The position numbers and the translations under genes are program-made. From Candidatus Hydrogenedentota bacterium (GTDB lineage: Bacteria > Hydrogenedentota > Hydrogenedentia > Hydrogenedentales > SLHB01), in the NCBI GenBank assembly GCA_016215105.1, contig JACRLJ010000006.1, forward strand, positions 69,030 through 125,458: 56,429 nt of DNA, given 5' to 3'. Each line of letters opens with the position of its first letter. The first letter of the stretch is position 1. The notes under the pieces are model-generated. The model was given only the letters and a program-made list of their open reading frames with translations. It ran no database searches and was not told the DNA's origin. This document shows, in pieces, positions 18,491 to 33,938 of the stretch.

Positions 18491-19882
18491 CTAATCCGTC
18501 TCCAGGCCGTACTTTTTCAGGCGGTACCGCAAGGAACGCGGTGTGAGTCCGAGAAGGTCAGCGGCCTTCTTCTGAGAATACTTGCTGTTTCGAAGCGCCT
18601 GCTGGATGAGGTTGATCTCAATCTCGGATACGAGCGCCTCGAGGTCCAACCCGTCCTTCGGCAACTCGCTCACGTTCTTTCCAGGCGTGGACACGAAGTT
18701 CCGCACGTTGTCCGGCAGGTCCGACAATTCGATATGCTCGCCATTGCAGAGCGCGACCGCCCGCTCCAGGACGTTTTCCAGTTCGCGGACGTTGCCCGGC
18801 CATCGGAAATTGCGCAAGACCTGCTCCGCATCCGGCGCAATATCAAGCTTGCCACGCCCCAGCTTCGCCGTGTGGCTCGTGACAAAGTGCCGCGCCAGCA
18901 GCGGAATGTCATCCGCGCGATCGCGCAGCGGTGGCACCACGATGGGTATGACGTTCAGGCGGTAATACAGATCCTCGCGGAACGTGCCTTCCTGCGCCAT
19001 CTGGCTCAACTTGCGGTTCGTCGCCGAAATAATGCGCACGTTCACTTTGATTCCCGTGGTCCCGCCAACCGGGGTGACCACGCTGTTATCCAACACGCGC
19101 AGCAGTTTCACCTGCAGCGCCAGCGGCATCTCGCCGATTTCGTCCAGAAACAGAGTGCCGCCGTCAGCGACCACGAAAAGACCTTCCTTGTCCTCGATCG
19201 CGCCCGTAAACGACCCCTTCTTGTGTCCGAACAACTCGCTCTCGAGCAGATTCTCCGGCACGCCCCCGCAATTGATCGCGACAAAGGGTTTTCCCGCGCG
19301 GTCGCTAAGCTGGTGTATCCCGCGCGCGACAAGTTCCTTGCCGGTCCCGCTTTCGCCATGTATGGCCACGGTGCTCGGAAGTGACGCGACCCGGCGTATC
19401 ATTTCACGCACCGTCTCAATCGCGTTGCTGGCCCCGATGAGGTTCTCGACCTTCCCGCGCTTGGCTTGGTCGGTGCGAAGCGCCACGTTCTCGCGAAGAA
19501 GATTGCGCTGTTGAATCGCCCGGCGGATTAGAAGTTTGATCTCGTCATTCTTGAACGGCTTCATAAGGTAATCCGCCGCCCCACGCTTCATCGCCTCGAT
19601 CGCGGTCTCGACGGATCCGTGCGCCGTCATCATGATTGACGGCGTCGCCGGCGCATGCTCCTGCACCCACGTCAACAAGGTCATCCCAGCGTCCCGATCC
19701 GCGCCCATGCGGAGGTCCATCACCACCGCGTCGAACGTCTCCTTTTCGAGCGCGGCCACCGCCCCTTTCACTCCGGGCGCTGTCTGGACCTCATACCCAT
19801 CGTTTGTCAGCACGATCTCGAGCAGCTCGCGCATGCTCGCCTCGTCGTCCACCACCTGGATACGCTGTGAAAGCCCTGCCAT
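18491..19882 (-). CDS. pilR: Sigma-54 response regulator, PilR-like
   Basis: 463 residues in the NtrC-family order. The receiver domain spans 1-~120 with the phospho-acceptor Asp in AVVMDLRMG. The sigma-54 AAA+ domain has Walker A GESGTGKE and the sigma-54 contact loop GSFTGA in place of the usual GAFTGA. The Fis-type helix-turn-helix is at the C-terminus (KKAADLLGLTPRSLRYRL). It starts 2 bp after the pilS stop with GAGGAG as SD. PilR is the best-fitting name because of the pilT-pilS context; NtrC-type regulators are otherwise hard to tell apart. Its targets would be sigma-54 promoters such as that of pilA, not seen in the window. Confidence 0.85.
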   Translation of the reverse strand: MAGLSQRIQVVDDEASMRELLEIVLTNDGYEVQTAPGVKGAVAALEKETFDAVVMDLRMGADRDAGMTLLTWVQEHAPATPSIMMTAHGSVETAIEAMKRGAADYLMKPFKNDEIKLLIRRAIQQRNLLRENVALRTDQAKRGKVENLIGASNAIETVREMIRRVASLPSTVAIHGESGTGKELVARGIHQLSDRAGKPFVAINCGGVPENLLESELFGHKKGSFTGAIEDKEGLFVVADGGTLFLDEIGEMPLALQVKLLRVLDNSVVTPVGGTTGIKVNVRIISATNRKLSQMAQEGTFREDLYYRLNVIPIVVPPLRDRADDIPLLARHFVTSHTAKLGRGKLDIAPDAEQVLRNFRWPGNVRELENVLERAVALCNGEHIELSDLPDNVRNFVSTPGKNVSELPKDGLDLEALVSEIEINLIQQALRNSKYSQKKAADLLGLTPRSLRYRLKKYGLETD

Positions 19883-19884
19883 GT

Positions 19885-21525
19885 TTACTCCTCAGTGTCC
19901 GCGGCCGCGGCATCGTCCGCCGGGGACACCGGCTCATCCGGTTTCGCCGCAGGCAGCCGCACGCTGATCGAGGCGCCGCGGCCCTGACGCGACGCCACGC
20001 GGATCGCGCCGTCGTGGGCTGTAATGATGCGGAGACACACAGCCAGACCCATGCCAACGCCGCTGTCTTTCGTAGTATAGAAAGGCTCAAAGATGCGCGC
20101 AACCTTGTCCGGATCGATCCCGGGGCCCTCGTCGTCAAAGCGAATCTCGGCCGAAGCCTGGCTCGGTGTAACCGTGACCAGCAGCCCGCCGCGCGCGTCC
20201 ATCGCCTCGATCGCATTCTTGCAAATGTTCAAAAACACCTGCTTAATCTGACCGCGATCTCCTGACAACACGCACGGTAGCGGCGGACAGTCCGCCCGAA
20301 TGCTCAGAAGCGGCGCGTCATCGTACTGCGGCCGCAGCAGGTCGCACACTTCCTCGACCAACTGGCACACGTCAAAATTCTCGCGCCGCGTGCTGGGCTT
20401 CCGTGCGAAATCGAGAAAGCCCGTCACAATCTGATTGAGTTGATCGGCCTCCCGCAACGCAATGCCGACCAACCGCTCCGCCACGGGCGGCGCGCTGAGG
20501 CTGCCCCGCAACTCCTCGACCGCTCCGCGAATCGCCGCCAGCGGGTTGCGAATCTCGTGCGCCAGGCCTGTCGCCAATTCGCCTACCACAGCCAGACGAT
20601 CCTGACGCTGCAACTCCTGACGCATGCGCGCCATCTCCGTCAAATCCGTAAACGACGCGATGATCCCGTTCACATTTCCGCGTGTATCGTACATGGTGTT
20701 GGTGGTCAGCCCCAGGAGCTTTGTCTCCCCTGCGCCCACAAGGACGTGGAACTCGTAACTCGTGAAATCCCGCTTCGAGCGCAGCGCCGTAACGACCGGA
20801 CACTCGCCTCCGGAATCCACGCGGAGGACCTCTTGAACCGGGCGAGAGACCGACTCACCTTCCTTGAGGCCGAGGATACGGTCCGCCCCCTTGTTCTGGA
20901 CGATGATGACGCCCCGGTTATCGGTGATCAAGAACCCGTTGTTCATGTTGTCGAGCAATTCATGCTGGAATTGCTGCATGCGGTGAATGCGCTGGTTCCA
21001 GTAACTGCTGATGAACGCAGTGAGATAGAACGCCAACCCCTGGATGAGCACGTTGTACCACAAGCTGATCGAAGGAGGCAGCGTCGCCGCGTCGGGCGGA
21101 GAAAAGGTCTGAATTACCATGAACAGCGTCGCAAACGACGCCAACAGGAAACTCGGGCCCATGCTCAATATCAAACCCGATTCAAGTATCACGATTACGA
21201 AGAGAAAGGCCAGGAAGCTCGTCGGTCCGCCCGTAAATCCCACCGTGGCCGCGACTACGCCAAAGTCAATGAGAACCTGAGCCCAGTTCGACAGAACTTG
21301 CAGCGATCGAACCTGCCGCTGAAGAAAAAGAAGGTACCAAACCGCGCTGACAAACCCCAGGAGGTAGAATCCGAGCAGGAACCCGAGCCCCATTCGCGGC
21401 TCGAAAATAAACGCCCCCAACACCACGACCGGAAGAACCAGTATCCTGGCGACACCCACATACCACTGCCAGGACTCGGGACCCTCACTTTCGCGGCGGA
21501 TGCGCTCTAAAAGGTGAACCGTCAC
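19885..21525 (-). CDS. pilS: Membrane sensor histidine kinase, PilS-like
   Basis: 546 residues. The N-terminal ~180 residues contain about five to six transmembrane segments. A PAS domain follows (NGFLITDNRGVIIVQNKGAD), then HisKA with the phospho-His in ATGLAHEIRNPLAAIRG and a HATPase domain ending in DSGVGMGLAV. The topology matches PilS. The GTG start overlaps the pilT stop (GTGA), so translation is coupled, and pilR follows directly. It is the predicted partner kinase of PilR, controlling pilus gene expression. Confidence 0.85.
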   Translation of the reverse strand: MTVHLLERIRRESEGPESWQWYVGVARILVLPVVVLGAFIFEPRMGLGFLLGFYLLGFVSAVWYLLFLQRQVRSLQVLSNWAQVLIDFGVVAATVGFTGGPTSFLAFLFVIVILESGLILSMGPSFLLASFATLFMVIQTFSPPDAATLPPSISLWYNVLIQGLAFYLTAFISSYWNQRIHRMQQFQHELLDNMNNGFLITDNRGVIIVQNKGADRILGLKEGESVSRPVQEVLRVDSGGECPVVTALRSKRDFTSYEFHVLVGAGETKLLGLTTNTMYDTRGNVNGIIASFTDLTEMARMRQELQRQDRLAVVGELATGLAHEIRNPLAAIRGAVEELRGSLSAPPVAERLVGIALREADQLNQIVTGFLDFARKPSTRRENFDVCQLVEEVCDLLRPQYDDAPLLSIRADCPPLPCVLSGDRGQIKQVFLNICKNAIEAMDARGGLLVTVTPSQASAEIRFDDEGPGIDPDKVARIFEPFYTTKDSGVGMGLAVCLRIITAHDGAIRVASRQGRGASISVRLPAAKPDEPVSPADDAAAADTEE

Positions 21526-22592
21526 TGCCCTTTTTCCATCAAGCGCCGCAGCCCTTCGGGATCGGAACTCCGCTTGAAGGCAACCTCCGTGGAAATCACC
21601 CCGCGCCGCATCAGGCGGTACAGCGACTGGTTCATCGTGATCATCCCGTCACCCGCGCCAATTTCGATCATCGAAGGAATCTGCTCGATCTTCTCCGCGC
21701 GAATCAACGACCGAATGGCCGTGTTGGGTATCATGATTTCCATGGCCATCACCCGGCCCGAGCCATCCGTGCGCGGTATCAACTGCTGCACGCACACACC
21801 CTCGAGCACAAAGGAGAGCTGCGTTCGAATTTGGTCCTGCTGCGAGGCGGGAAACACGTCCACAATACGGTTGATCGTTTGGAGCGCGTCGTTGGTGTGC
21901 AAGGTTGCAAACGCCAAGTGGCCCGTCTCCGCCACCGTTAGCGCCGCCTGAATCGTTTCCGGGTCGCGCATTTCACCGATCAGGATCACGTCCGGGTCCT
22001 GGCGCAACACGTGCCGCAACGCCGCCGCGAACGACTTCGTGTCCGCATGCACCTCGCGCTGATTTATGACCGACCGATTGTGCCGATGCAGATATTCTAT
22101 CGGGTCCTCGATCGTGATCACGTGTACATTGCGTTCCTGGTTAACGCGGTCGATGATTGCCGCCAGCGTCGTGGACTTGCCACTACCCGTCGGCCCGCAC
22201 ACGAGGATCAAGCCGGTCGGTTTTTCCGCGAACGTCGCAATCACGCGCGGCAACCCAAGCTCCTCGAAGGACTTGATCTCGAACGGGATCGCGCGGAACG
22301 CCGCCACCACCGAACCACGGTCGCGATACACGTTCAATCGAAACCGGCTCACGCCATCAATACCAAAGGACATGTCGCATTCTTTGGTGGTTTCAAACTC
22401 CGCGACCTGCTCCTCGTTCATCACGCTGTACACGACGTCCTGCGTGTCCTCCGGTTTGAACGCGTCGTACCCCGCCAGGGGCTCGAGTCCCCCGTGCAAC
22501 CGGATGATGGGCGGAGCGCCCACGACGATGTGGAGGTCGCTTGCCCCCTGGTTAATCATCTTAACCAGAAGTTCTTTGATGCTGATCGACAT
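21522..22592 (-). CDS. pilT: Type IV pilus retraction ATPase PilT
   Basis: Hexameric secretion-type ATPase that powers pilus retraction and twitching. 356 residues. Motifs: Walker A GPTGSGKST, Asp box, Walker B DVILIGEMRD, His box GHLAFATLHTN, and AIRSLIRAEK, a version of the PilT AIRNLIRE signature needed for retraction. A GGAGGGG SD stands just before the ATG. The gene lies 36 bp after pilB and is coupled to pilS. Confidence 0.95.
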   Translation of the reverse strand: MSISIKELLVKMINQGASDLHIVVGAPPIIRLHGGLEPLAGYDAFKPEDTQDVVYSVMNEEQVAEFETTKECDMSFGIDGVSRFRLNVYRDRGSVVAAFRAIPFEIKSFEELGLPRVIATFAEKPTGLILVCGPTGSGKSTTLAAIIDRVNQERNVHVITIEDPIEYLHRHNRSVINQREVHADTKSFAAALRHVLRQDPDVILIGEMRDPETIQAALTVAETGHLAFATLHTNDALQTINRIVDVFPASQQDQIRTQLSFVLEGVCVQQLIPRTDGSGRVMAMEIMIPNTAIRSLIRAEKIEQIPSMIEIGAGDGMITMNQSLYRLMRRGVISTEVAFKRSSDPEGLRRLMEKGQ

Positions 22593-22628: not shown

Positions 22629-23858
22629 TTAATCGGCCGCGGTAACCCGCAGCACCTCTTCGATCGTCGTCTGCCCTTTGGCCGCCTTCGATAGCGCGTT
22701 CTGACGCAGCGTCTTCAGGCCGCATTGAATCGCCACTTCCTTGAGCTGGGTCGACGCCGCTCGATGCAGCACCAAGTCCTGCATCTCCGGATAATTGGGC
22801 ATTGCCTCGATCACCGCGAGACGTCCACGGTAGCCCGTGCCCTTGCATTTGTTGCAGCCGCGTCCGCGCACGAACGCCGGGGTCTCGCCGTCCTCGAGTC
22901 CATGGAACTGGATACGCTCCAGCACGTCGGACGGCACCCGGATCGGCTCCTTGCAGTCAACGCACACCTTGCGCAGCAGGCGCTGCGCCGCCGCCAACGC
23001 CACCGACGATTGCACCAGGAATGGCTCCAGGCCCATGTCGGTGAGCCGCGTAAATACGCTCGAGGCGTCGTTGGTGTGCAAGGTGCTCAACACCAGGTGC
23101 CCCGTGAGGGCCGCCTTCACGGCAATATCCGCCGTCTCTTCATCGCGGATTTCGCCGATCATCACGATGTCCGGGTCCTGGCGCAAGATACTGCGCAGAC
23201 CGGCCGCGAACGTCAGCCCAATCTGCGATTGCGCCTGCACCTGGTTAATCCCGTACAACTCGTATTCGACAGGATCTTCCACCGTGACGATGTTGCAGTC
23301 GATTTGGTTCAGCTTGTGCAGCGCGCTGTACAGCGTCGTTGTTTTTCCGCTGCCCGTTGGCCCGGTTACCAGAATCATCCCAAAGGGCAACGCGAGCGCA
23401 TCCTTAAACGCCTGCATGGGCTGCGGCTCAAACCCCAGCTTCTCGAGGTCCAGCGATAGATTGCTCTTGTCGAGCACGCGCATGACCACTTTCTCGCCGT
23501 AGTACGTCGGCAGGATTGACATTCGGAAGTCGATCTCCCGCCCTTTGAACCGGATGCGGAATCGCCCGTCCTGCGGAAGCCGGTGCTCCGAAATATCCAG
23601 CCCGCTCATGATCTTGAGGCGTGAAATCAGCGCGGACTGCACGCTCTTCGGCGGGCTCTTGGTCTCTTCAAGAATGCCGTCCACGCGATAGCGCACGCGA
23701 AGAACCTTCTCAAACGGCTCGATATGAAGGTCGCTGGCGCCCGCCTCCAATCCGTTAACCAGGATCAAGTTGACCAAACGGATAACCGGCGCGTCCTGGG
23801 CGTCCGCCTGGAGCGACGCGACGTCGCCAATATCCTTCTGCTCCTCGACTACTTCCAA
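22629..23858 (-). CDS. pilB: PilB/GspE assembly ATPase, distal part of split gene
   Basis: Catalytic part of the pilus extension ATPase: 409 residues with N2-domain segment RLKIMSGLDISEHRLPQDGR, Walker A GPTGSGKTTT, Walker B IVMIGEIRDEET, His box GHLVLSTLHTND and the four-Cys zinc motif (CVDC near the end, CNKC after it). The frame is open back to the TAG at 23955-23957, which separates it from the N-terminal MshEN domain; the first initiation codon after the TAG with any support is the TTG at 23858, without a good SD. The intact gene (22629-24356) would have 576 codons, normal for PilB. Probably a nonsense mutation or read-through site. Confidence 0.85.
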   Translation of the reverse strand: MEVVEEQKDIGDVASLQADAQDAPVIRLVNLILVNGLEAGASDLHIEPFEKVLRVRYRVDGILEETKSPPKSVQSALISRLKIMSGLDISEHRLPQDGRFRIRFKGREIDFRMSILPTYYGEKVVMRVLDKSNLSLDLEKLGFEPQPMQAFKDALALPFGMILVTGPTGSGKTTTLYSALHKLNQIDCNIVTVEDPVEYELYGINQVQAQSQIGLTFAAGLRSILRQDPDIVMIGEIRDEETADIAVKAALTGHLVLSTLHTNDASSVFTRLTDMGLEPFLVQSSVALAAAQRLLRKVCVDCKEPIRVPSDVLERIQFHGLEDGETPAFVRGRGCNKCKGTGYRGRLAVIEAMPNYPEMQDLVLHRAASTQLKEVAIQCGLKTLRQNALSKAAKGQTTIEEVLRVTAAD

Positions 23859-23954
23859 TCCCTGCTGCTTTTCTTCGCTGCCGATAAGCGCGTCGTACAG
23901 GGCTTCGCTCTGTTTGCCAACTCCGTAGTGCTTCTCGATGGTCGCCAGCAGTAC

Positions 23955-24356
23955 CTACTCGACCGCCACCACGGGCTCGATCTCATAGCTCGTCAGCATC
24001 CGGAGATCGTCGAGCGCCATGATGTTCAACGGGTCCGCCATCGCCAACGTCAAGACATCGCCCGTCACGGACACGGGCATCATCTGGTACTGACGCGCCA
24101 GCGACTCTGGGACCTCCTTGAGAATTTCCTTCGGAATATTGTAGTTCGCGACGCGGATATGAGGAATCCCGAGTTGCTCGCTCAGGGTAATAACCAGGTC
24201 TTCTTCGGAAAGGTAGCCCTTTTCGACCAGGATATGGGCCAAGCTCTGTCCCGTGGACCGTTGCAGCGCGAGGCATTCCCGGAGCTGCGGCTCCGAGACG
24301 AGCTGTTGTTCAAGCAGCACGTCCCCGAGGCGGCGTTTGGCTGTTTTTGGCGGCAA
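23955..24356 (-). CDS. pilB: PilB N-terminal MshEN domain, ends at in-frame TAG
   Basis: 133 residues. TTG start at 24356, fixed by a GGAGGG SD 7 nt upstream and an in-frame TGA immediately before it. It holds one MshEN (GspE N-terminal) domain with two tandem motif copies: RRLGDVLLEQQLVSEPQL, then LAHILVEKGYLSEEDLV. In MshE-type ATPases this domain binds cyclic di-GMP. The product stops at PVVAVE-TAG; the same frame then continues VLLATIEKHYG into the PilB core, just where family members read through. A free MshEN domain might act alone, but loss by mutation is simpler. Confidence 0.8.
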   Translation of the reverse strand: MPPKTAKRRLGDVLLEQQLVSEPQLRECLALQRSTGQSLAHILVEKGYLSEEDLVITLSEQLGIPHIRVANYNIPKEILKEVPESLARQYQMMPVSVTGDVLTLAMADPLNIMALDDLRMLTSYEIEPVVAVE

Positions 24357-24442: not shown

Positions 24443-26725
24443 TTAGGCCACCTCGCTGAGTCCGAGGTGACTGAGGATCTCGGTCGCCATATCACATGTC
24501 ACTTCCTGTCCGACTAAGCTCGCAAACGCGGCGACCTTGCGCAGCGAGCCCGACATCTTTCGGATGTCATTGGGCACGCGTGTCGCGATGAGCGACAAAA
24601 CCTCTTCGGGCACCTTCACCTTGCTGTCCTTGGCTTGGCGCCGCAATATCGCCATCCGCGTCTCCCACTCCGGGGGCCGCAAGCTGGCGACAATCCCGCC
24701 CGCGAACCGTGAGACCAGTCGCTTTTCCAACTGTCCCAACTGATCGGGCGGTTTGTCTCCTGCAATGATAATCTGGCGGCCCTCCTGATGCAACGCATTA
24801 AAGATGTGAAAGAATTCCTCCTGCGCCTCGACTCGACCGCCCATAAACTGGATATCATCGAGTATCAGAACGTCCCAATGGCAGTAATTCTCCCGGAATG
24901 CCCCCAGCGCATGCTCCTGTATCGCGTCGCCCAGCGCGCTCGCAAAGCGGCTCGACGAGACGTAGCCCACGCGCCGGTTCGGTTCCACATTGAGTATGTG
25001 GTTGCCAATGGCGTTGATCAGATGCGTCTTGCCTATCCCTACGTCGCCATAAAGAAAAAACGGATTGTACTCGCTGCCCGGTTTCTCGGCCACGGCCTTG
25101 CCCATCGCCACCGTGAACGAGTTGGCCTTGCTGACGATGTACCCCTCGAAGGTGTAGCCCTCTAAGGGTTGTTCCGACGCGAGCGCCGCGTGCATACGGT
25201 CGTCCTCGGGCGCGTACGCCACCGGACTTTCCAGCGCCGCGAGCGCGTCCCGCTCCGCCTTGTTGAGCGGCGTGACGGTCGCATGCTTGCGCCGGCGCTC
25301 GTCTTCAAGCTTCCCCCGTTGTTGCGCGCTTTCCAGCGCCGCCGTCTCTACCGACTTGGCTGCTTGCGAAGCCGCGTTCACGACCTCGTGCAGACGGGCC
25401 TCCTGGGTCGCCAAGGCTTCCCGCGCCTGCTCCAGCGCCGCAATCTCCGCTTCCGCGGATCGAGACACCGGCGTCGCGGACGCCTTGTGAATGCGCTCAT
25501 CCATAAGCGAAACAACGTCGTGCATCGCGGCGCGTACACTCTCGCCGACCGCCGCCGCCAGATCCTCGACCGAGGGACCGGCGTGCGCCGCGCCACCCGA
25601 AGCGTTCGAGCGAACCCCGCCAATACTCGCCGAAGCTTCCTGAATCGCGCTCTTCATCGCCGCCGCAAGTTCCTCGGCGGACAGCCCCGCCGCCGCCGCG
25701 GGCGCGGAGGACTGAATGCGCTCGTCGAGCAAGCCAATCATCTCGTGCATGGCTTCGCGGACGCTCTCGCCGACAGCCGCAGCCAACATTTCCGCCGATG
25801 GACCCGATGACGCCGCCTGCGCAGGCATGGCGCTGCGAACGGCATCCACCATGACCGTCATCGCTTCGTTCACGGCTTCGCGCGCCGATTCGCGCGCCGC
25901 CGCCGCTATGTCATCAGACGAAACGTGCGATTCGGATGGCGCGGATGGCGCCGCGGGAGCCGCCGTGCGCCCCGGTTCCTGTGGGCGCGACGAGGGAGCC
26001 GGCGCTACGGCAGGGCGCTCGACCGCCGGCGCTTTTCCCGCCGCGGATTCCGCCGGTTTCGGCGCCTGCGTTTTGGGGCGTTCCGTCAGACCAAAGCTGC
26101 TCGCGGTCTCTTCACCGCGGTCCACGTGCTTCTCGAGAACGCGCCGGGCAACCGTCTCATAGTGGTACCAGTCGCAAAGAATGGGCTTGATTTTCAGTTC
26201 CGGGCACGCCGTCCGCACCGCTTCGAGCGCGTCCGAGTCCAGCGGGTCAACCATCGCAACCGTCAGGATCTTCCCCAGACGATCAATAGGCAAGAGGTTG
26301 TGCTTGAGGCAAGTCTCTTTGGATATGTACTTGAACAACTCCTCATTGAACTGATAGTCGAGAAGACTCAAGTGCGGTATCTTGCACTGTTTTACCAGAA
26401 ACGAAATCAGCGTCTCGCGATGAATAAACTTGAGATCAACAAGCATCTGACCAAGAAAACCACCCTCGCGCTCCTTCTTCGCCAACGCCTCATCGAGCTG
26501 CGCCTGGGTAATCACGCCCTCTTGTACGAGGATCGATCCCAGTTGGTGGCGAGGATGCTCGAGTTCGCCACCATCGGCCGTGAGGTCGCTCGCGGATTGC
26601 GGATTCGATGCGCGAGATGGCGCCGCGGCAGCCGGTTTCGAGCCGGATGGAGACGGCGCGGCCGAAGACGCTGCGAACTTATCAGCGTCGCCCTTTGCCC
26701 CTGAATCCTTGCGCCAACTCAACAT
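24443..26725 (-). CDS. MshEN domain fused to DnaA-like AAA+ ATPase
   Basis: 760 residues from the ATG at 26725 (GAGG 9 nt upstream; a GTG at 26776 and an ATG at 26758 are in frame). Order: polar leader; MshEN/GspE_N domain at about 59-200 with degenerate binding motifs (HQLGSILVQEGVITQ, FLGQMLVDLKFIHRE); Pro/Ala-rich linker; four degenerate helical repeats at about 265-412 (LAAAVGESVREAMHEM type); coiled coil; a DnaA-domain-III AAA+ module with Walker A GDVGIGKTH near 560, Walker B VLILDDIQF near 618, box VII KRLVSRFAGG and sensor-2 VPNDIRKMSG. It ends just after the AAA+ lid, without the DnaA DNA-binding domain IV. It leads the pilB-pilT-pilS-pilR operon. A role in pilus regulation or localisation is inferred; it is not the replication initiator. 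Confidence 0.85.
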   Translation of the reverse strand: MLSWRKDSGAKGDADKFAASSAAPSPSGSKPAAAAPSRASNPQSASDLTADGGELEHPRHQLGSILVQEGVITQAQLDEALAKKEREGGFLGQMLVDLKFIHRETLISFLVKQCKIPHLSLLDYQFNEELFKYISKETCLKHNLLPIDRLGKILTVAMVDPLDSDALEAVRTACPELKIKPILCDWYHYETVARRVLEKHVDRGEETASSFGLTERPKTQAPKPAESAAGKAPAVERPAVAPAPSSRPQEPGRTAAPAAPSAPSESHVSSDDIAAAARESAREAVNEAMTVMVDAVRSAMPAQAASSGPSAEMLAAAVGESVREAMHEMIGLLDERIQSSAPAAAAGLSAEELAAAMKSAIQEASASIGGVRSNASGGAAHAGPSVEDLAAAVGESVRAAMHDVVSLMDERIHKASATPVSRSAEAEIAALEQAREALATQEARLHEVVNAASQAAKSVETAALESAQQRGKLEDERRRKHATVTPLNKAERDALAALESPVAYAPEDDRMHAALASEQPLEGYTFEGYIVSKANSFTVAMGKAVAEKPGSEYNPFFLYGDVGIGKTHLINAIGNHILNVEPNRRVGYVSSSRFASALGDAIQEHALGAFRENYCHWDVLILDDIQFMGGRVEAQEEFFHIFNALHQEGRQIIIAGDKPPDQLGQLEKRLVSRFAGGIVASLRPPEWETRMAILRRQAKDSKVKVPEEVLSLIATRVPNDIRKMSGSLRKVAAFASLVGQEVTCDMATEILSHLGLSEVA

Positions 26726-26792
26726 AATACCGGACCTCGGGTGTAGTTTCTTGTGCATGCGCCGATGATCGGGCACACCTCTCCATTCGAGT

Positions 26793-26822
26793 ATTTTACC
26801 ACAAAGCAGCCAATTGCGTCAA
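26793..26822 (-). promoter_or_regulatory. Sigma-70 promoter of the pil operon
   Basis: On the minus strand TTGACG (26817-26822) and TAAAAT (26793-26798) are separated by 18 bp, followed by a start region near 26786. This is one of the best promoter matches in the window. Transcription would begin about 60 nt before the ATG at 26725, which favours that start over the GTG at 26776. Confidence 0.6.
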
Positions 26823-29119: not shown

Positions 29120-29229
29120 AGCGTCCAACTTTGGGCGCGCGAGGCTTGCGCCCGCGATTCACTGGGGTGTGCTTTGACCCGTATCGAGCCGCTAAGCGGA
29201 TTCAGATACCGAGGGAGAAATCCAATTCT

Positions 29230-29736
29230 ATGGAACCACAATCGAACCCGGCGGACAAGATCAACGTCGAGTTGGTCGTGCCGTTCGTGGGCGCTACGCA
29301 TAAAGTGTTCGAGACCATGATGTCAACCAAGGTTCAGCGCAAGGAAGTGCGTGTGAAAAACAACAACGTCATGCTCGGGGACATCACCGGGGTCGTCGGT
29401 CTGAAAGGTCAGATTGTTGGCACCGTGATGCTCAGCATGCCGGTATCCGCCGCCGCGAAGAGCGTCGGCCGGCTCCTTGGCGAAGAGGTCTCCGGCGGAG
29501 TCGAAAGCGAGACGCTTCGCGACGGCGTCGGTGAGATTACAAACATCATCGCGGGCCAGGCCAAGGCCGCGCTCAGTACCAGTAAGTATAAGTTCGAGAT
29601 CTCCACTCCGGCAATTGTTTCAGGGTCCCACCATGAAATCAGCGCCAAGAAAGGATGTACCTGCCTCGAAGTGATCTTTGAGACGGCGGAAAAGGAGCTT
29701 TTTTCCGTCGAGATCGCATTTGTCGAGGCCGTCTGA
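29230..29736 (+). CDS. CheX/CheC-family chemotaxis phosphatase-like protein
   Basis: 168 residues, start ATG at 29230 with GAGGGAG about 12 nt upstream, a longish spacing. The CheX fold is suggested by alternating strands and the motif DGVGEITNIIAGQAK near residues 97-111, which carries the E-x-x-N pair used to dephosphorylate CheY-P. The family regulates chemotaxis or pilus-driven motility by removing phosphate from response regulators. No other che genes are present; the pilus operon is nearby. The family call is fair; the role is inferred. Confidence 0.8.
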   Translation: MEPQSNPADKINVELVVPFVGATHKVFETMMSTKVQRKEVRVKNNNVMLGDITGVVGLKGQIVGTVMLSMPVSAAAKSVGRLLGEEVSGGVESETLRDGVGEITNIIAGQAKAALSTSKYKFEISTPAIVSGSHHEISAKKGCTCLEVIFETAEKELFSVEIAFVEAV

Positions 29737-31643: not shown

Positions 31644-32282
31644 CTAACCTTCCGCGTGGAGCTCTTTGAGCCGCCGCTGAACATACCGGGCAAGCGCGTT
31701 CGCCGCCAGCGGATCGCACGTAAGGAAACGAATGCCAAACAAACGGCCGCTATCCACACCGCCATCGTCCACTGCATTCATGTGGACCACCTGCCCCAGA
31801 ATCGTATGTATCGTTTCTCCGGGCAGGGATAAGGACATTTCGACCGTGGTGTCAAAATCGAATGGCGCATGGCTGCTAACCAGTGCGCCGCCCTCGCTCA
31901 TATCGAGTACATCAGCGTCATATCGGCGCACGCGAACTTGATCTTTGATCTGCGCGGTAAGATCCGTCGGGACGCGCAGCGCGCTCCGGTGCCGGTTGCG
32001 CCGCGGTGTGTCGGGCAAGCTCAGAATGATACCGTCGTTGATCTTACTGGGGCCGCTCACGACGACCGTGTTGTATTGGGTGTATCCCTCCGTGTCGTGA
32101 AACTCCAAATCGACCCGCATCCCGCCCAGCGGGAAGTTCCTGAGTGGGAAAGTCACCCGCACCGTGTCCGCGCCAACTTCGAGAAGCTCTACCAGAAAGC
32201 GCCTGCCACTCACCAGGAGCATACAGCGGTTCCCGGTGTAAAAATCAGACGTGACTTCGCCAGCAGAATGCGCGGTTGGCAT
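31644..32282 (-). CDS. PilZ-domain protein with YcgR-like N-terminus
   Basis: 212 residues. The N-terminal ~95 residues resemble the PilZN/YcgR flagellar-brake fold. The C-terminal PilZ domain has both cyclic-di-GMP motifs intact: the R-x-x-x-R pair in HRSALRVP and D-x-S-x-x-G in DMSEGGA. Predicted cyclic di-GMP receptor; targets unknown. It lies between two other cell-surface or c-di-GMP-type genes on the same strand, with a 136-bp gap upstream. Confidence 0.85.
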
Positions 32283-32418: not shown

Positions 32419-33510
32419 TTAGTAGTAATAGCGGCCAATGGCGTCGGCAATGTCCGATGCGGTCGCCACGACCGGCGTAACGCGAAGGTTGGTCGCCAAC
32501 TCAACGTCCTCAATCGCGATCAAATCCAGAGGATTCGACATCGCCAAGGTAAGCTCCTCCGGCGTAATCCGGATAGGAATGCACGCGTGATGGGATGCGA
32601 GCCGCCCGTTAATCAGGCGTACCGCCGCGAGCTCAACGGTCGCGTCGTTCAACAGCACAAACGGGGCCTGCACCTGGGACGCGAGAACCTGCGCGACCAA
32701 GTCCTCCGCGGTGTAACCGCGCGCCACCAGGATCTCCCCGAGGCGGCGGTGCCGCGAAGTCTCTTGTTCAACAAGGGCCGAGTCCAGTTGCTCCTGGGTG
32801 ATAACGCCCGCCGTGACCAGGATGTCGCCCGTTCGCCGCTTGTGGCCGCGTGAATCGAGCGCCGCCGTGGCGATGTGTTCCGGCACGCCCGATGGCTGAG
32901 GCGCCGCTTCGGCGGGTGTCGCGCTTCTGCGGCGCAGGGACTCGATCTCCGCGCGCAAAACGACGATTTCCTGGTGCGCTTCCTCACGGTCGCTGAGAGC
33001 CTGCGCCAACTGGTTCGGCAGGCCATGGTCACCGGTGTCGGTGTGGTTCGGCAGGCTATGGTCCGCGGTGTCGGTGACGCTATCGCTATCGCCGCTCCGC
33101 GAACTGGCGCCTCGGGCTTCCGCCAGCTCTACCTCCAGCGAAGCCACCTGCTCACGAAGTTGTTGCGCGGTCCGCTCCAAATGAGCGGCGCGCCTCTCCG
33201 CTTCCTGTTGCGCGCTGCAGCGCTCCTCATAGACTTGCCGCAGACGCTTCAACTCGTCTCCCAGCGCCGCGGCCTCCTCCGAAAGCGCGCGATTCTTGAG
33301 TTCGAGAGACTCCAATTCGCCGCGCAACCCCGTGGTTTCTTCGGGTACGGTTTCGTCGCGCAGATCGTGAACGACCGAATCCAGCCGATCCTTTGCGCGA
33401 GATAGTTGATCGGAAAGGCCTTGCTGAGCTCGGGACACCTGGGCGTTCCACTCCGCAACGGCGGCCTCCAGGCGTACCAGGATATCCGGTTGTTGAGGTA
33501 GTTCCGGCAC
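32419..33510 (-). CDS. Coiled-coil protein with C-terminal MshEN domain
   Basis: 363 residues from the GTG at 33510 (AGGAG 7 nt upstream); the open frame reaches 33756 but the extra part has no RBS. Residues ~10-200 are a long Glu/Ala/Gln/Arg-rich coiled coil. A short linker includes a duplicated 11-residue unit (TADHSLPNH, TGDHGLPNQ). The C-terminal ~140 residues form an MshEN domain with two well-kept motif copies, RTGDILVTAGVITQEQL and RLGEILVARGYTAEDL, better preserved than in the DnaA-like fusion. No ATPase domain follows, so it is a stand-alone sensor or adaptor. Predicted to bind cyclic di-GMP; partner unknown, pilus machinery plausible. Confidence 0.78.
   Translation of the reverse strand: MPELPQQPDILVRLEAAVAEWNAQVSRAQQGLSDQLSRAKDRLDSVVHDLRDETVPEETTGLRGELESLELKNRALSEEAAALGDELKRLRQVYEERCSAQQEAERRAAHLERTAQQLREQVASLEVELAEARGASSRSGDSDSVTDTADHSLPNHTDTGDHGLPNQLAQALSDREEAHQEIVVLRAEIESLRRRSATPAEAAPQPSGVPEHIATAALDSRGHKRRTGDILVTAGVITQEQLDSALVEQETSRHRRLGEILVARGYTAEDLVAQVLASQVQAPFVLLNDATVELAAVRLINGRLASHHACIPIRITPEELTLAMSNPLDLIAIEDVELATNLRVTPVVATASDIADAIGRYYY
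33012..33077. repeat. 33-bp tandem duplication in the MshEN coiled-coil gene
   Basis: 33012-33044 and 33045-33077 are adjacent copies starting GGTTCGGCAGGC, 29 of 33 positions identical by hand count. They encode two copies of an 11-residue unit in the linker between the coiled coil and the MshEN domain. The reading frame is kept. Confidence 0.8.
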
Positions 33511-33938
33511 TGTGTGACTCCTCGCCCAATCACCCGTAAAGCTCGATTTCAGCGTTTGTTCCTCGGCCTGGTCTTGCGGCGGAATAACAAACTGCGGGTA
33601 TGCGTTAACACTAAATTCGGCAATTGGCCGGGACTGACCCCGTCTCTCGTGCGGCGGAGCTAGACGCGAAAAACGGGGTCTCTCCCTCACCTTGACGCGC
33701 AGACCGCTGAATTTGGACTGAGACCACGGCCCATGTTGGATTGAAGTATGCACCACGGCGCCAATCGCGTCAACCTATACTTCGCAGTTGGTTGGGATCG
33801 CCCCCGTCCTTCGCAAGACAGTCTTGTGGGAAACGCCGGTCCTGTCCCAGGCCTGGATGGTGTACCGTTGTTGCATCCACAGTTCACATTCTCCTAGGAT
33901 GGCCGTGCTCCAATCTCCCAATTCCGTACACGAAGCGC
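33511..33938. other. 428-bp divergent gap with several stem-loops
   Basis: No gene is supported. It separates the divergent MshEN coiled-coil gene and the phosphatase gene. Structures seen: an imperfect 14-bp inverted repeat at 33630-33686 (listed separately); GAAGTAT/ATACTTC at 33743-33783; and the palindrome AAGACAGTCTT near 33820. No clear sigma-70 promoter was found for either gene. Confidence 0.45.
33630..33686. repeat. REP-like imperfect inverted repeat
   Basis: GGGACTGACCCCGT (33630-33643) and ACGGGGTCTCTCCC (33673-33686) are inverted with two mismatches and a 29-nt loop. Short intergenic GGGACnGAC-type hairpins resemble the REP sequences mobilised by Y1-family (RAYT) transposases; that link is recalled knowledge and not shown here, since no such transposase is in the window. 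Confidence 0.45.

Follow-up and report, generated by a model that had tools for sequence, protein, structure and literature searches.

Most of the Hydrogenedentota genomes considered here carry a gene that fuses a MshEN domain to a DnaA-type AAA+ module without the DNA-binding domain, and at every homologous locus retrieved this gene stands directly upstream of pilB, which encodes the type IV pilus extension motor. The fusion is thus the rule of its family and not an oddity. We suggest, with a probability of about 0.55, that the fusion protein is a c-di-GMP- and ATP-gated partner of PilB, which would sense c-di-GMP in trans for the motor. The copy at the center of this analysis lies in a window of 56,429 nucleotides (the whole stretch of DNA that was analyzed) from the 6.7-Mb draft genome, 95% complete, of a Candidatus Hydrogenedentota bacterium (Table 1).

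Table 1. Coordinates, in the window, of the fusion gene, the parts of its product and the genes that follow it.
Feature	Position	Strand	Remarks
Promoter-like site TTGACG-18-TAAAAT	26793..26822	-	Upstream of the fusion gene; consensus match
MshEN / DnaA-type AAA+ fusion gene	24443..26725	-	760 aa; ATG at 26725
MshEN domain	26162..26545	-	aa 61-188; motif I aa 61-84, motif II aa 90-113
Disordered Pro/Ala linker	25930..26125	-	About aa 201-266; pLDDT <50 over most of it (AlphaFold)
Four alpha-helical repeats	25475..25918	-	Helices 270-299, 311-339, 350-375, 386-417
Long helix, probable coiled coil	25331..25456	-	aa 424-465 (AlphaFold)
DnaA domain III-type AAA+ module and lid	24461..25168	-	aa 520-755
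pilB	22629..24356	-	TTG start after GGAGGG; 86 bp after the fusion gene
pilT	21522..22592	-	Second gene after the fusion
pilS	19885..21525	-	6TM_PilS, PAS, HisKA, HATPase
pilR	18491..19882	-	Receiver, sigma-54 activator, Fis-type HTH

The longest open reading frame at the locus (24443-26776, 777 aa) stays open in the same frame up to a GTG at 26776 and ends with a TAA at 24443-24445 on the minus strand. The true start is likely the ATG at 26725, since GAGGT lies about 9 nt upstream of it, the promoter-like site is suitably placed, and the resulting "ML-W" N terminus is common to the paralogues. The first-pass annotation had read a MshEN domain, a Pro/Ala linker, helical repeats, a coiled coil and a DnaA domain III in this one polypeptide, and Pfam, NCBIfam, AlphaFold and Foldseek all bear this out. 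Pfam recognizes Bac_DnaA at aa 523-679 (2.2e-55, 187.7 bits) and MshEN (PF05157; 1.3e-13, 51.1 bits, cutoff 23.1), and NCBIfam the c-di-GMP_motif model NF053729 (54.4 bits, cutoff 38). The NCBIfam model of DnaA itself, TIGR00362, reaches 301.9 bits, below its cutoff of 343.9. In Pfam searches, the fusion protein matched neither the T2SSE ATPase domain (PF00437), which is found in the next gene, nor GGDEF-EAL domains.

Solved structures and structure prediction give the same picture. The top solved-structure match is domain III of Bacillus subtilis DnaA (6.9e-66; identity to 8bv3 about 42%), and for the MshEN part the matches are type IV pilus ATPases and MshE. In an AlphaFold model built on a 35-sequence alignment, the MshEN and AAA+ domains have pLDDT values mostly above 90. 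Foldseek aligns the full model to DnaA domain III with a TM score to the target of 0.87 to 0.90 and returns MshE with c-di-GMP as the best structural match of the MshEN domain. With DnaA domain III (8bv3; Thermotoga maritima 2z4r) the module shares the AAA+ fold, Walker A and B, the box VII arginine and sensor 2, the key residues in the window copy being K566 in Walker A, D623/D624 in Walker B, R673 in box VII and R722 in sensor 2. Shuffling confirms the helical repeats: the repeat unit reaches a score of 100 at another copy, and none of 200 shuffles exceeds 56.

The fusion differs from DnaA in that it has no domains I, II and IV and sits behind a MshEN domain. Its reading frame ends at the AAA+ lid, where the DNA-binding domain IV would begin, and there is no room for this domain because pilB begins 86 bp past the stop. 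Domain IV was not found downstream or in adjacent frames at the locus, and the 40 homologues likewise terminate no more than a few residues from the lid helix, so that its absence, as noted in the first-pass annotation, is confirmed. The locus is therefore not a split or misread true DnaA, as there is neither room nor a frame for domain IV and the dnaA of the host sits elsewhere, on another contig (G000:C5:64839). A one-off fusion or an assembly chimera can also be discarded, the architecture being repeated in about 40 other genomes, as can a part of an IS21/IstB element, since the DnaA-type AAA+ module cross-matches IstB weakly. The seven one-mismatch matches to DnaA boxes in the window do not exceed what chance gives (17 of 100 shuffles), and we therefore see no origin-like site there.

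The fusion gene heads the order pilB-pilT-pilS-pilR, as had been stated. It had also been credited with a good promoter of its own. The TTGACG-18-TAAAAT site is rightly placed and is the sole sigma-70-like match in 9.5 kb. Shuffled sequences yield 2.2 such matches on average, so that the promoter is backed by its position and not by its rarity. The pilB gene of the window contains an in-frame TAG at 23955-23957, just past its MshEN domain, and is intact in relatives; either a genuine nonsense mutation or an error of the draft assembly may account for this. The host genome has 16 GGDEF matches (13 of them strong) and PilM, and it therefore probably possesses both c-di-GMP signaling and a pilus machine. 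Other genes near the operon that relate to c-di-GMP or chemotaxis encode a PilZ protein (31644-32282, minus strand), a coiled-coil protein with a C-terminal MshEN domain whose motifs are near-perfect (RTGD..Q and RLGE..Q; 32419-33756, minus strand) and a CheX phosphatase (29131-29736, plus strand).

The phylum set comprised 68 genomes, all of one order. The search took in the host and 59 relatives, and most of these 60 genomes have, besides the DnaA match, an orthologue that strongly matches the AAA+ part. MshEN and AAA+ are joined in one reading frame in 39 of the 40 loci fetched, or 40 of 41 counting the window copy, the single exception being a copy truncated where its contig stops. Between the two domains, the linker can be as short as 124 or as long as 776 residues. 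The Walker A lysine, the two Walker B aspartates, the box VII arginine finger and the sensor-2 arginine are each present in 41 of 41 homologues; the sensor-1 aspartate is missing from a few divergent members (5/41) and kept in the other 36. Directly downstream, on the same strand, lies pilB at all 40 homologous loci, although at one of them (L078) only its start is left before the contig ends. The genes pilT-pilS-pilR follow pilB at 32 of the 40, a count that includes loci running off the contig inside this stretch (two of them within pilR); at L052, L053, L055, L056 and L091 they were not seen downstream and the fusion-pilB pair is kept. The survey of homologues and neighborhoods that had been proposed as a check thus returned the same architecture (40/41) next to pilB (40/40), and did so in a second lineage as well (see below): homologues co-occur with pilB instead of living apart from pilus genes.

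In six drafts, neither the fusion nor a pilB orthologue was found (G001, G016, G032, G064, G065 and G067); only G032 is more than 90% complete (93%), G016 being 66% complete and the other four incomplete drafts. Genus g37 (G048 and G054) has kept pilB-pilT-pilS-pilR without the fusion gene. Two genomes encode the MshEN and helical part without AAA+, upstream of pilB in G035 (L123/L259) and on a separate contig in G027 (L270). The AAA+ part is therefore dispensable in places, and the fusion gene is strongly tied to PilB yet not indispensable. Many Hydrogenedentota genomes also encode a sister family of about 450 to 480 aa, in which a MshEN domain of almost the same type is joined to a cyclic-nucleotide-binding (cNMP) domain (L253-L257 and, in the host, L252, a copy interrupted by N).

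The MshEN domain carries two motifs of 24 residues, and in each the backbone of the third residue, a glycine, holds the guanine; in MshE, changing the first motif glycine abolished c-di-GMP binding (PMC5013675). In Thermus PilF, the arginine at position one can be replaced by K or L, a hydrophobic residue there was proposed to predict very high affinity, as in GSPII-B, and GSPII-A does not bind c-di-GMP (PMC11731258). The fusion has the same two motifs and five-residue spacer as MshE (5htl) and the PilB/PilF domains. The key contacts (R/K/L, L, G, L, L and Q in both motifs) are mostly kept in the family consensus, with an F opening motif II. Among 45 fusion domains, and with shared ancestry ignored, the glycine is kept in 43 for motif I and in 42 for motif II; the final glutamine is kept in 31 and 38, respectively, and F is the first residue of motif II in 39. 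In the window copy, the R of motif I is replaced by Q and its final Q by K, so this copy may bind c-di-GMP weakly; its motif II starts with F.

The PilB proteins adjoining the fusion have taken another course. Their motif II glycine is absent in 39 of 39 cases and replaced by A, P, Q or V, a count that likewise ignores shared ancestry. The motif reads SLA or SLP, as in the non-binding GSPII-A, where it is SLAEVLV; in the PilB of the window it is degenerate and reads SLAHILV. The glycine is kept in 17 of 20 other PilB/GspE paralogues from the phylum and from two Abyssobacteria-type genomes (again ignoring shared ancestry), and in five of the six paralogous motor proteins of the host. The PilB of G048 and G054 also lacks it, although no fusion adjoins. 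The c-di-GMP sensor thus seems to have moved from the PilB motor to the neighboring gene. Compared with MshE and PilF, the MshEN domain of the fusion has no T2SSE motor attached, the motor being encoded by the neighboring gene, and an F instead of R at the start of motif II. Pairings of MshEN with REC, HD-GYP, CheA, CheX, cyclase and kinase domains (Wang et al. 2016, PMC5013675) show a sensor as portable as in the fusion; the main-text list does not include a DnaA-type AAA+ module.

These observations lead us to propose that the fusion protein is a dedicated regulatory partner of PilB. Its MshEN domain would read c-di-GMP. The AAA+ module, stripped of the DNA-binding domain, would bind ATP and assemble head-to-tail via the arginine finger, and the helical repeats and coil would link the two and give reach. 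Contact with PilB may involve most likely its degenerate MshEN domain, or else a co-assembly around the PilB hexamer. The two inputs, c-di-GMP and ATP, could then govern the engagement or placement of PilB, that is, where or when it works, and the fusion would sense c-di-GMP in trans on behalf of a motor no longer equipped with a sensor of its own. The invariant catalytic residues and the mostly preserved motifs are consistent with such an ATP-dependent oligomeric switch fed by c-di-GMP. From these sequence patterns we infer that c-di-GMP is bound, that oligomerization depends on ATP, that PilB is contacted and in which direction control runs. There is a precedent for c-di-GMP control of PilB in trans, by FimX with PilZ (PMC11656802). 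The FimX of Pseudomonas and Xanthomonas resembles the proposed role of the fusion in being a c-di-GMP receptor outside PilB that controls PilB. It differs in having degenerate GGDEF-EAL domains and no AAA+ module, and it is not homologous, so that the likeness is one of analogy only.

The same protein could be read as a scaffold for the localization or assembly of PilB, in which the MshEN domain docks proteins, c-di-GMP is not a ligand, and ATP-dependent AAA+ polymers place the motor. As in scaffolds, the stretch of helical repeats and coil is long and differs in length between members; motif I is weakened in the window copy; the MshEN domain of the fusion also matches, in Foldseek, the PilB N-domain bound to PilZ; and G035 retains MshEN and the coil upstream of pilB without the AAA+ module. 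Yet the glycines, leucines and glutamines that contact c-di-GMP are kept in most of the family while decaying in the adjacent PilB, and we consider a scaffold of this kind rather unlikely.

The relation of the AAA+ module to DnaA raises the question of a role in replication, and the first-pass annotation had envisaged a coupling to the cell cycle as well as to a second messenger. In a tree of 66 AAA+ domains, the DnaA proteins of all these genomes fall on one side of a branch with support of 100/99, and the Hydrogenedentota fusion forms a separate clade (99/100) outside the DnaA of the same genomes. MshEN- and receiver-linked modules from other phyla lie on the non-DnaA side, in a tree that separates DnaA from non-DnaA modules and does not give the mutual order of the latter groups. 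An example from Elusimicrobia (L196) is placed inside DnaA. The fusion could still act on replication as Hda, the regulatory inactivator of DnaA, does: it would dock on DnaA and stimulate its ATP hydrolysis at high c-di-GMP, so that surface attachment would restrain replication, and the adjacency to pilB would reflect co-expression only. Like Hda, it is a DnaA-type AAA+ protein without the DNA-binding domain and with an intact arginine finger, and the host has no obvious Hda, its only Bac_DnaA match besides dnaA being a weak one of 27 bits. A clamp-binding motif, sought by regular expression, was found in none of the 41 fusion homologues, however, and the Hda model TIGR03420 (NCBIfam) scores 101.7 against a cutoff of 194.8. 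The fusion also differs from Hda in being linked to the pilus and in carrying a large N-terminal sensor and repeats. Moreover, the gene tends to go missing together with pilB (in G032, G064, G065, G067 and G001) while dnaA is present in G032, and the fusion-pilB order is conserved across phyla. We regard such a brake on replication as very unlikely, and less likely than a partner of PilB. With an AAA+ clade apart from DnaA, no recognizable clamp motif and a gene that tends to be missing where the pilB orthologue is missing, the proposed coupling to the cell cycle is not upheld.

Type IV pili can serve DNA uptake, and at the pilus, for example while DNA is taken up, the AAA+ module might handle single-stranded DNA through a DnaA-type single-stranded DNA-binding surface. 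Its nearest solved folds are indeed DnaA structures, including 3r8f, which is bound to single-stranded DNA. The segment before QEEFF, which we take to carry the residues contacting single-stranded DNA in DnaA, speaks against this: it reads GKEAT in most Hydrogenedentota DnaA proteins but GRVEA in most fusions. No competence gene was noticed in the operon either, and we give this possibility very little credence.

Outside the phylum, the survey covered the phyla reached by a peptide-pattern search. The small phylum to which Candidatus Abyssobacteria belongs has a compact fusion (442 to 484 aa) ahead of pilB in three genomes, one of them deposited as Poribacteria. The two loci that are long enough (L160 and L161) show the complete order fusion-pilB-pilT-pilS-pilR, and the third genome (L288) has fusion-pilB. 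In Fermentibacteria there are several MshEN/AAA+ genes in tandem, including one for a product of 1999 aa with two AAA+ modules, and pilB lies close downstream of this cluster (L159). Sensors joined to DnaA-type AAA+ modules thus include MshEN domains in Hydrogenedentota, Abyssobacteria and Fermentibacteria, and receiver domains in Fermentibacteria.

Several further arrangements were seen in these phyla. Elsewhere in the Fermentibacteria genome, many proteins combine a receiver with a DnaA-type AAA+ module without domain IV and form their own clade (L211, L214, L218, L219, L220 and L221). An Abyssobacteria genome (L262, 5902-11067) and one deposited as Poribacteria (L213) encode proteins of about 1722 to 1835 aa with two DnaA-type AAA+ modules and a very long coiled-coil-like stretch between them. 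Two Abyssobacteria-type genomes (L201 and L203) have, beside a normal DnaA, a second one of about 357 to 360 aa, which consists of domains III and IV without the N-terminal domains; its gene shares its contig (G070:C166 and G071:C10) with nearby PilB/GspE genes. In Omnitrophota, a stand-alone MshEN protein of 150 to 207 aa is encoded directly upstream of pilB (L162, L167, L169, L172, L175, L179, L181 and L189); its first MshEN unit keeps both motif glycines, and the adjacent pilB has lost its own. We do not count this parallel as proof, because these loci were retrieved by MshEN similarity and may be subject to ascertainment bias.

Taken more broadly, and tentatively, a DnaA-type AAA+ switch freed from replication may have become a plug-on signaling output which, next to pilB, would provide a c-di-GMP- and ATP-gated assembly replacing the lost sensor of the motor. 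The first-pass annotation had been aware of no function described for the architecture, and in open-access full text we too found no description of a MshEN-DnaA fusion or of this gene. From its sequence, the fusion would be a variant on the trans-acting c-di-GMP regulators of pilus motors. A sensor in the neighboring gene would be a testable answer to how c-di-GMP can control a PilB whose own site has decayed, since the intact sensor of the fusion and the decayed motif II of PilB, set against the intact motif of other PilB/GspE copies in the phylum, lead to a clear prediction of which of the two small domains should bind. The phylum-wide family has kept its ATPase machinery and dropped DNA binding beside a pilus motor. 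The ATP-dependent self-assembly of DnaA is known from replication, and this family would show the switch reused for other tasks. If the AAA+ module does polymerize as a signaling output, the fusion would represent a new class of pilus regulator and, for a DnaA-type polymer, a task outside replication.
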